The position numbers and the translations under genes were made by a program. The notes beneath the pieces were generated by a model, which did not search any database, was not told where the DNA came from, and worked only from the letters and a program-made list of their open reading frames with translations. Shown in pieces: positions 45,897-48,147 of a DNA stretch of 64,000 bases. The stretch spans positions 930,001-994,000 of the forward strand of contig NZ_CAAHFG010000003.1 of assembly GCF_900890425.1 (NCBI RefSeq). Reading direction: 5' to 3'. Numbering within the stretch: the first letter of the stretch is position 1; every line of letters starts with the position of its first letter. This DNA is from Pontiella desulfatans (GTDB lineage Bacteria; Verrucomicrobiota; Kiritimatiellia; Kiritimatiellales; Pontiellaceae).

Positions 45897-46011
45897 CCTT
45901 CATTTCCATCCTTCGGATGGCCGATTTTGGCCTCATCACGAAAGTGCGTCTTGAAAGTCAGATAACGTTGCTTCGACTGCCTTTGCCCACAGATCGATCA
46001 CTAACAAGCCA

Positions 46012-46056
46012 TCATTTTTACACCGCTCCGCGCTGTCGCTAATCGCTCAAAAATGA
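46012..46056. repeat. left hairpin of the GxxExxY cassette
   Basis: Stem TCATTTTT (46012-46019) with AAAAATGA (46049-46056); the 29-base loop contains GTCGCTAATCGCT (46035-46047). Confidence 0.65.
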
Positions 46057-46122
46057 CAGCTCTGACATTTTCCATTTAAAAAGTCTTTATGATTAGGTGT
46101 CCAGCTGTATTCTTATGAACCG

Positions 46123-46500
46123 ATGAATGATTTTCTATTTAAAGACGAGGGGTATCAACTGATCGGTGCAGCTTTGGAAGTGTATAATGAGCAGGGGCAT
46201 CATCTTTCGGAGGACATTTATCAGGCTTCCCTGGAAGCTGAACTTCAGCGTCGAAAAATCCCCTATGATCCTCAGTTCCGGTTGGATGTTTATTACAAAG
46301 GGTTCAAACTGAAACCATACTTTATTCCAGACCTCTTCGTTTTTGATGAAATCATTGTTGAGCTGAAGGCTGTAAAACAATTAATTCCTGAGCATGAATC
46401 ACAATTGCTTAACTATCTGGCCATCACCGGCAAAAAAGTTGGCTATCTCATAAACTTTGGCCACAAAGGCACACTGGAATGGAAACGTCTCGTACTTTGA
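46123..46500 (+). CDS. GxxExxY family PD-(D/E)XK nuclease-like protein
   Basis: The 125-residue protein matches the GxxExxY family: HHLSEDIYQASLEAELQ near the start is the name-giving region, and FIPDLFVFDEIIVELKAVK carries the acidic D...ExK core of PD-(D/E)XK nucleases. GYLINFGHKG is the usual C-terminal strand. Length is normal for the family. The biological role of these proteins is not established. It is isolated from the metabolic genes, lacks an obvious ribosome binding site, and is framed by inverted hairpin repeats, so it looks like cargo of a small repeat-bounded unit. Confidence 0.88.
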   Translation: MNDFLFKDEGYQLIGAALEVYNEQGHHLSEDIYQASLEAELQRRKIPYDPQFRLDVYYKGFKLKPYFIPDLFVFDEIIVELKAVKQLIPEHESQLLNYLAITGKKVGYLINFGHKGTLEWKRLVL

Positions 46501-46502
46501 GG

Positions 46503-46550
46503 CAGAAATTTAAGCGATTAGCGACGCGGCGCAGCCGGGATAAATTTCTG
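46503..46550. repeat. right hairpin of the GxxExxY cassette
   Basis: Stem CAGAAATTTA (46503-46512) with TAAATTTCTG (46541-46550). The loop begins AGCGATTAGCGAC (46513-46525), the complement of the core in the left hairpin. It starts two bases after the gene stop and could also end transcription. Confidence 0.65.
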
Positions 46551-46707
46551 TCGCCCATTCGTGTCGGATCTGTGGGCAAAACAACCCTATTCTGAATAGT
46601 CTAATCCAGTGCCGGAACGCACTTCCGTGAAGAACCCGATTTTGCGGCATCTGCTGCAGTTTTAAAGCATCGAGGTTTCAGCTTTCAAATCTTGCATCTA
46701 CAGTAAA

Positions 46708-48039
46708 CTAGGCCGTTCCCGAATCTAGGATCATGGGGTAATGTTGCCGGTTTCCAAGGTGAGGCGTGGAATATAGGGGCCAGAATATCAGTTTCTGTTC
46801 GGGCAGTTCTTCGTAGGGGCCATCACGCAAAACCCAGCCTTGTTCGCAGTTGGGGTATGTTTTCAGGCAGAGGTGCAGGCTTTTCAGGCGACCAGACGGC
46901 CCCGATTTGACCTCAACCGGATAAATCCGTCCGTCGCGGACCGCCAGATAGTCCACTTCTGCATTGGCGCTGCGGGCTGTTCTTGACCAATAATGAAGAT
47001 TTTCACCGTGCCAGGCCAGTAGCTCTTGCGCAACAAACTGTTCCGCAAGTTGTCCGTTGTAGACCGACAGAAGGTTTTCCTTTCCCACGGCGGCAGAGGG
47101 GGGGATGCCGCATAAATGCTGCATGATGCCGATGTCCAGCATGGCGGCCTTAAACCGTTTTCCGCCATCCGCGCCCAGGGGCAGACCGGACGGGTTTGCC
47201 GAAGCAACCCGCTGCATCAGCTTTGCCTTGCAGAGCAGGTCGAATGCCTTGTGGTTTGTTTTCCCCGTGGCATGTTCATAAAGGCGGGTGTAAAGGATCT
47301 GCTGCCCGACGGTTTTGGCCGCGGTCGCAAAAACCGTGTCCAGACATGTGTAATCGACGGATGGGCGGTATTTTGCAAAATCTTCCCGGTAGGATGTAAT
47401 AATTTCGGAGTGCACTTCGTAGGCCTCCAGCAAGGAGCCGGATTCCCGATATGCCGCAACGGCTTCCGGCATCCCGCCGACAAAAAAATAGTTTCGCAGT
47501 TGCTCATGGATGGCGGTGACAATTTCGGCCGGGTGGCCGCATGGAGGTTCCAGTAATTTTTCCGCCATAACCTCTTTGCCAATGGCCAGCAGAAATTCAT
47601 AGAACGTCATCGGCTGAAGGTGAAGATATTGCACCCGGCCGACAGGAACTGAAATTTCTCCAAAGGCGAATTCAAGCATTGAACCCGCGGCCACCACATG
47701 CAGTTCCGGCATTTGTTCGTAGAAATAGCGCAAGGCGGTGATGGCCCGCGGACAGCTCTGGATTTCGTCGATAAACAAGAGTGTTTTTCCGGGAATAATC
47801 CGGCCCGCGCTCGCTTCGATTACATTCAGCATGACCTCCGGACTGAGTTCTCCCGAGAACGCTCCATGGTAGTGCGGCTGGCTTTCCAGATTGATTTTGA
47901 CGTAACGGTCAAACTGCTTTGCCAGACAATTTTCAACCAGCCAGGTTTTCCCGACCTGTCGGGCTCCCCGGATAATCAATGGTTTCCGTCGGGCTGAATT
48001 CGCCCACTTTATAATTTTTTCTTCGGCGATCCGCTTCAT
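46708..48039 (-). CDS. AAA-type ATPase with DUF4143 domain
   Basis: The 443-residue protein has a Walker A motif in RGARQVGKTW, Walker B in LLFIDEIQ, and AGSMLEFAF/VGRVQYLHLQPMTFYEF, which identify the AAA_14 ATPase module (residues about 15-165). A C-terminal DUF4143 domain (about 215-400) with SRTARSANAEVDYLAVRDGRIYPVEVKSG shows a PD-(D/E)XK-like core. GGAGG six bases before the ATG at 48039 fixes the start over an upstream TTG. Such proteins are widespread in anaerobes, often in many copies, with no proven role. It is on the opposite strand from its neighbours and likely unrelated to glycan use. Confidence 0.9.
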   Translation of the reverse strand: MKRIAEEKIIKWANSARRKPLIIRGARQVGKTWLVENCLAKQFDRYVKINLESQPHYHGAFSGELSPEVMLNVIEASAGRIIPGKTLLFIDEIQSCPRAITALRYFYEQMPELHVVAAGSMLEFAFGEISVPVGRVQYLHLQPMTFYEFLLAIGKEVMAEKLLEPPCGHPAEIVTAIHEQLRNYFFVGGMPEAVAAYRESGSLLEAYEVHSEIITSYREDFAKYRPSVDYTCLDTVFATAAKTVGQQILYTRLYEHATGKTNHKAFDLLCKAKLMQRVASANPSGLPLGADGGKRFKAAMLDIGIMQHLCGIPPSAAVGKENLLSVYNGQLAEQFVAQELLAWHGENLHYWSRTARSANAEVDYLAVRDGRIYPVEVKSGPSGRLKSLHLCLKTYPNCEQGWVLRDGPYEELPEQKLIFWPLYSTPHLGNRQHYPMILDSGTA

Positions 48040-48147
48040 CGTCAACCTCCGGATACAGATAATGCCTGTAAATTATAGGATCAATCCCGAATGTCAATGG
48101 TAATACGTGATTAACAATGCCAAATATCAACTATATTGATGGTTTAA

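Follow-up and report, generated by a model that had tools for sequence, protein, structure and literature searches.

The 64,000-nucleotide stretch of the Pontiella desulfatans genome analysed here (the window, to which all positions refer) contains a 599-bp unit whose neighbours are a GH2 gene and an ATPase gene; it does not lie in rRNA. The unit carries a single gene, which encodes a GxxExxY protein, and its two ends are inverted copies of each other. The features of the locus are listed below.

45933 to 45949, no strand assigned: left outermost inverted segment, with a small hairpin (CACGAAAGTG) within it; 17 nt, 88% complementary to 46617 to 46633; its membership of the element is uncertain
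45982 to 46061, plus strand: left arm, the end of the element; long imperfect inverted repeat with 46503 to 46580; arm score 55 (95th percentile of the control, 28)
45982 to 45995, plus strand: left copy of the perfect 14-bp inverted repeat, TTTGCCCACAGATC
45988 to 45994, plus strand: motif unit 1, CACAGAT (scan with CRCNDAN)
45999 to 46005, plus strand: motif unit 2, CACTAAC (scan with CRCNDAN)
46012 to 46056, plus strand: left hairpin, stem TCATTTTT/AAAAATGA (folding and stem search)
46037 to 46043, plus strand: motif unit 3, CGCTAAT, in the hairpin loop (GTCGCTAATCGCT, 46035 to 46047)
46123 to 46500, plus strand: GxxExxY gene, 125 aa, PD-(D/E)XK nuclease fold, PD..ELK and helix-1 GxxExxY residues intact
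46503 to 46580, minus strand: right arm (inverted)
46503 to 46550, minus strand: right hairpin, stem CAGAAATTTA/TAAATTTCTG (folding and stem search)
46517 to 46523, minus strand: motif unit 3', CGCTAAT (scan with CRCNDAN)
46557 to 46563, minus strand: motif unit 2', CACGAAT (scan with CRCNDAN)
46567 to 46580, minus strand: right copy of the perfect 14-bp inverted repeat, GATCTGTGGGCAAA
46568 to 46574, minus strand: motif unit 1', CACAGAT (scan with CRCNDAN)
46617 to 46633, no strand assigned: right outermost inverted segment, pairing with 45933 to 45949
46708 to 48045, minus strand: AAA ATPase-type gene beside the element

The perfect 14-bp inverted repeat, which the preliminary description had correctly placed at the ends of the 599-bp unit, is nested in a longer imperfect one (83% over 23 nt, 75% over 36 nt). 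The inverted similarity spans both arms with gaps and reaches beyond the unit, to the segments at 45933–45949 and 46617–46633. When the inverted pairs of at least 20 nt within 700 bp of each other are ranked by length over the 64 kb, the first two belong to the GxxExxY element. The scan with CRCNDAN identifies left units at 45988, 45999, and 46037, inverted right units at 46574, 46563, and 46523, and one additional overlapping match. Placements in which each side has three or more inward-facing units occur in the 64 kb only at the element and at one other offset, 52575.

Each arm contains a hairpin. The folding z-scores of the DNA are -4.3 for the left hairpin (minus strand) and -3.75 for the right hairpin (plus strand). 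Only 10 positions of the window have perfect 8-bp stems with loops of 27–31 nt, and three of these are accounted for by the two hairpins of the element. The earlier observation of two hairpins with a common loop and unlike, yet paired, stems thus stands for the window copy. Selection on structure had been proposed on this basis, and the paired stems are consistent with it, but two hairpins in one element are no proof. The "conserved loop" represents inverted copies of one segment of the arm, namely the third motif unit with the bases around it. The hairpin is an extra feature of the window copy and places the third unit of each arm in a loop. A genome search for the loop sequence, which had been suggested, finds exact matches to GTCGCTAATCGCT in the 8.66-Mb genome only in the two hairpins of the element. 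One-mismatch matches elsewhere are as rare as those of a control pattern. Hairpins at both ends were recognized by eye in a minority of the family (loci L058, L150, L164, L199, L208, L218, and L225), and most relatives have plain arms of 27–30 bp without a hairpin. Together with the poor pairing outside the 7-nt motif across 123 elements, this argues against conserved-loop hairpins as a general rule.

The gene of the element is intact, and its product is a PD-(D/E)XK-type protein, as initially proposed. The protein is a full-length member of TIGR04256 (E 8e-36, 122.9 bits, cut-off 35) and matches PF13366, PDDEXK_3 (E 4e-37, 127.5 bits, cut-off 22). Residues E30, Y33, D70, and K82 (of the ELK motif), which are in place in the window protein, are invariant among 56 sequences. 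There is no known transposase in the unit, since the Pfam and NCBIfam matches of its single ORF are PDDEXK_3 and GxxExxY only. The AlphaFold2 model, calculated from the 56 window and locus sequences, is confident (pLDDT 94). The best PDB match of the model is SSO0001/Cas4 (4ic1; E 1e-4, TM 0.60), and lambda-type exonucleases are also among the best matches. The predicted fold of this putative nuclease is therefore close to those of Cas4 and lambda exonuclease of the RecB family; however, the window protein, with 125 aa, is much smaller than the matched nucleases (194–228 aa) and lacks their extra parts. No role for the GxxExxY family was found described in the literature searched. The host genome contains 14 GxxExxY loci, and no other copy is more than 54% identical to the window protein, which gives no indication of a recent burst. 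Of 20 close relatives, 19 have GxxExxY genes, with up to 17 matches in one genome. The search of phages yielded no homologue, and that of plasmids a single copy, from Treponema.

Inverted arms are a general feature of the single-domain members of the family. The sample comprised 145 genes, all complete and single-domain, taken from the order, from the phylum together with near relatives, and from a homologue scan; many of the genomes are split over many contigs. At a fixed score, 123 of the 145 genes (~85%) lie between inverted arms, compared to 6% in a mismatched-pair control and 1% in shuffled sequences; the remaining 22 are under the threshold. The median length of the elements is 458 bp. 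When the upstream flank was compared with the reverse-complemented downstream flank by one alignment score, the match between a gene's own flanks exceeded the 99th percentile of shuffles for 88% of 139 genes, versus 6% for mismatched pairs. In the host genome, all 11 single-domain genes have arms (those of L006 are weak by score but clear by eye), with units CACTAAT, three times, at L002, CGCAAAG at L003–L005, CACGAAG at L007, and CGCAGAG at L014. The three long two-domain genes (L009, L010, and L012) have none. Similar ORFs of about 270 aa, several with two copies of the domain and without arms, occur in many relatives; the long arm-less protein is perhaps a domesticated host gene.

The close homologues found by the scan are flanked by arms with CGCTAAT/CACTAAT motifs instead of the loop hairpins: all 13 assessable closest homologues, from Verrucomicrobiota and Planctomycetota, have units of the CGCTAAT or CACTAAT type in their flanks, which is the type of the unit contained in GTCGCTAATCGCT of the window. 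The prediction that GxxExxY genes always lie between inverted copies is thus supported in that nearly all single-domain genes have inverted ends, but these are not the hairpins of the window. The arms with motif arrays are the feature that the reading based on hairpins had missed. TIGR04256 and PF13366 are defined by the protein alone, and the flanking arrays are added here; no description of them was found in the literature searched, which left out most subscription journals.

A typical arm is composed of three 7-nt units with the consensus CRCNDAN, spaced 8–10 nt apart. The units are inverted at the opposite end; in 92 of 101 cases, the unit as read on the sense strand of the gene points inward. 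The score for triplets of similar 7-mers in the arms is 17.6, compared to 10.9 in shuffled sequences, and the largest class comprises the elements with six units (55 of 123). At the variable positions of the unit, identity is 84% within an element and 41% between elements. The similarity of units decreases steadily with the identity of the proteins (Mantel r 0.42, with none of 2000 permutations as high), and the seventh base of the unit changes nine times on the protein tree, versus 43.8 times for shuffled labels. The units of the largest protein clade end in G, whereas those of the window clade end in T or A. The unit follows the phylogeny of the protein, an association that plain co-inheritance could explain. 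Coupling between residues and units is dominated by phylogeny and was not taken as proof.

The elements fit closely between genes. For co-directional neighbours, the median distance is 0 nt from the upstream stop codon to the left arm and 10 nt from the right arm to the next start codon; only co-directional distances were used, because assigning the strand of a neighbour by its longest ORF is unreliable in GC-rich sequences (L003 was miscalled). The window copy is less typical, as it begins 178 nt past the upstream stop codon and its downstream neighbour is convergent. The best relative of the adjacent beta-galactosidase (70%, G032) has neither the element nor the adjoining ATPase gene.

Empty sites, a search for which had been suggested, were found in relatives at a trpE/trpG-like junction, the gene names being our reading of the sequences. 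In the order, 13 such junctions are empty, 10 contain a GxxExxY element or its remnant, and six contain a different, gene-less hairpin element; filled and empty junctions are too diverged from each other to delimit a target-site duplication. The GxxExxY copies at this site form one clade (support 100/99). However, a pair with TrpG proteins 95% identical has GxxExxY proteins only 68% identical (L078/L082), whereas in a pair from different families the values are 83% and 81% (L092/L027). The simplest reading of these sequence comparisons is that elements were exchanged or inserted anew at the junction; alternatively, old copies may have been lost unequally. The discordance with the host gene at one site is at most suggestive of homing. 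The states of the junction are also compatible with an old insertion followed by repeated loss, and among the loci compared, no transposition event, target-site duplication, or near-identical pair of filled and empty sites was found. Several unrelated hairpin-type repeats are located at the stop/start junctions that GxxExxY elements use (L085, L093, L096, L102, and L081/L095, trpE/trpG-like, and L109 before ribD), as though insertions commonly landed there.

The 599-bp unit most likely belongs to a family of small mobile elements in which the encoded nuclease reads the ends of its own element; both mobility and binding are inferred. We assign a probability of about 0.58 to the reading that it is one copy of a widespread, compact, inverted-ended family with a single GxxExxY gene, which is a selfish mobile or homing element with a co-evolving nuclease and end motif. 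The nuclease would bind the arrays of units at the two ends of the element, with three sites in each, and would help to cut or join these ends. Changes in the nuclease and the end motif would follow each other, and insertions would survive mainly at gene junctions, because no gene is broken there. The earlier proposal of a small mobile unit is thus plausible, given the near-general inverted ends and the empty junctions in relatives, but hairpins with conserved loops are not supported as its general basis. It is possible, more tentatively, that the elements constitute a new minimal self-mobilising or homing class, in which a Cas4-like nuclease of ~125 aa reads its own 3+3 array of an evolvable CRCNDAN motif, with many independent specificities across phyla and the S23p elements described below as a sister design.

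The strongest competing explanation, although improbable in our estimate, is that of an RNA element resembling an intervening sequence (IVS), in which the arms would form a stem in the transcript and the ORF would lie in its loop; the insert would be cut out by RNase III or the encoded nuclease and thus be harmless in an operon. The overall plan is that of the S23p IVSs, inserts of ~430 nt with one small ORF of unknown role and complementary ends of ~28 bp; the Coxiella IVS has 428 nt and a 28-bp stem whose loop contains the ORF (PMC4990558). The RNA folding z-score of the window element (-3.5) and the co-directional placement in operons also agree with this explanation. Furthermore, genes of the S23p type (four-helix bundle, TIGR02436) in the host genome (L065–L071) have inverted arms with tandem units in about six of seven full-length cases. 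Their units are different ones (GATGAGT, GAAATTG, GATGCTT, and TATTGCG), and these genes lie outside rRNA, unlike the described IVSs. Since S23p is the known IVS protein (PMC4990558), this parallel arm design keeps the RNA-stem explanation in contention.

The pattern of mismatches between the arms points the other way. In the 123 elements, arm-to-arm mismatch is 0.5–26% at the positions of the unit (mean 7.6%) and 45% in the linkers (p 1e-48); within the unit, base 7 is mismatched in 0.5% of cases, bases 3 and 6 in 1.6%, and base 4 in 26%. A stem selected in the transcript would tolerate G-U over A-C mismatches; however, there are 146 mismatches of the G-U type on the sense strand and 179 of the A-C type, and thus no enrichment of G-U. 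The accumulation of mismatches in the linkers while the units are kept favours recognition of a motif on DNA over selection of an RNA stem. In one element (L003), the odd unit sits at the outer end of one arm and at the inner end of the other, which breaks the pairing. The pattern therefore favours repeated recognition of a short DNA motif, although RNA pairing may have a role in some copies. A comparison of the element and its relatives with Rfam produced nothing credible, with one miRNA match far below the gathering score. The GxxExxY elements also differ from S23p IVSs in that they lie between protein genes rather than in a helix of 23S rRNA from which RNase III removes the insert, in encoding a nuclease instead of S23p, and in ends that appear conserved by motif rather than by pairing.

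It is unlikely that the arms are operators through which the protein or another factor regulates the gene or its neighbours in an immobile element. Inward-facing short repeats beside a gene, co-evolving with its protein, would suit such a function. Nevertheless, the arrays occur just as much downstream of the gene, they form the outer boundaries of inserts at otherwise empty junctions, and two remnants (L086 and L098) retain both arms after most of the gene was lost.

Even less probable is the mechanism suggested in the preliminary description, a non-autonomous unit moved in trans by a hairpin-recognising enzyme, for which an IS200/IS605-like or REP-associated Y1 transposase would be an example. 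The two clear hairpins of the window copy, the 19 Y1_Tnp matches in the genome, and the gene-less hairpin elements at shared junctions speak for it. However, most members of the family lack such hairpins, the class of the unit tracks the GxxExxY protein, which is unexpected for a shared trans enzyme, and no link between the Y1/HUH-type proteins of the genome and the element was found. An old, vertically inherited and often lost immobile cassette, with arms kept only as terminators or mRNA-stability hairpins, is very improbable: the single clade and the common gene-deleted remnants at the trp site would fit, but protein similarity within that clade conflicts with the host gene, other types of element occupy the same junction, and the arms are on both sides of the gene and kept by motif, not pairing.

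Gene-less structures were observed in the vicinity of several GxxExxY genes. The protein most similar to that of the window (78%, L239, G015:C28) is encoded between two direct copies of a structured gene-less element of ~320–400 nt with ends of the CACTAAT type, which was also detected at L242, L250, L251, L247, and L249. In five sequences, 41 of its 89 predicted pairs have compensatory changes, and the loop TAATC is complementary to the loop GATTA. Matches to a model of the 5' part of the element number 24 in genome G018, eight in G015, two in G035, and one in G037; no other genome of the order has any. There was no credible match to Rfam, and the element is possibly an undescribed mobile structured RNA. 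Homology of the window hairpins to this element was rejected, as the scores were not above those of shuffles and a covariance-model test gave no credible match. Downstream of the GxxExxY gene at L006 are near-identical tandem gene-less arm pairs (CTCACGGAGTTCACTAAGAGCACAGAGG ... CTCCGTGCCTTCGTGAG) that resemble internally deleted copies of an element. At L055, L058, L060, and L061, inverted arm pairs of the CGCTAAT/CACTAAT class that lack a gene directly adjoin gene-bearing elements.

The preferred reading, a mobile family with nuclease-read ends, shares features with several known systems. Like MITEs and repeats of the RUP, BOX, and ERIC types, the elements are small and intergenic, with inverted ends and gene-less derivatives; in contrast to MITEs, they carry a conserved gene, and their end sequence varies from element to element but is uniform within each. 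The window element has inverted terminal repeats, as insertion sequences and transposons do, but not a known transposase. Hairpins near an encoded or partner nuclease are reminiscent of REP/RAYT and IS200/IS605 systems; however, the window unit has no Y1 gene, and hairpins are absent from most members. The tags of REPs are GTAG/CGTC (PMC3733652).

The arrays provide the GxxExxY family with a testable substrate, because nearly all its single-domain genes lie between motif arrays that track the protein. Intergenic repeats of the CGCAAAG, CACGAAT, and CGCTAAT types, which are common but lack an explanation, may thereby be accounted for. The family would represent a natural series of matched protein–DNA specificities, provided that the nuclease reads the arrays.
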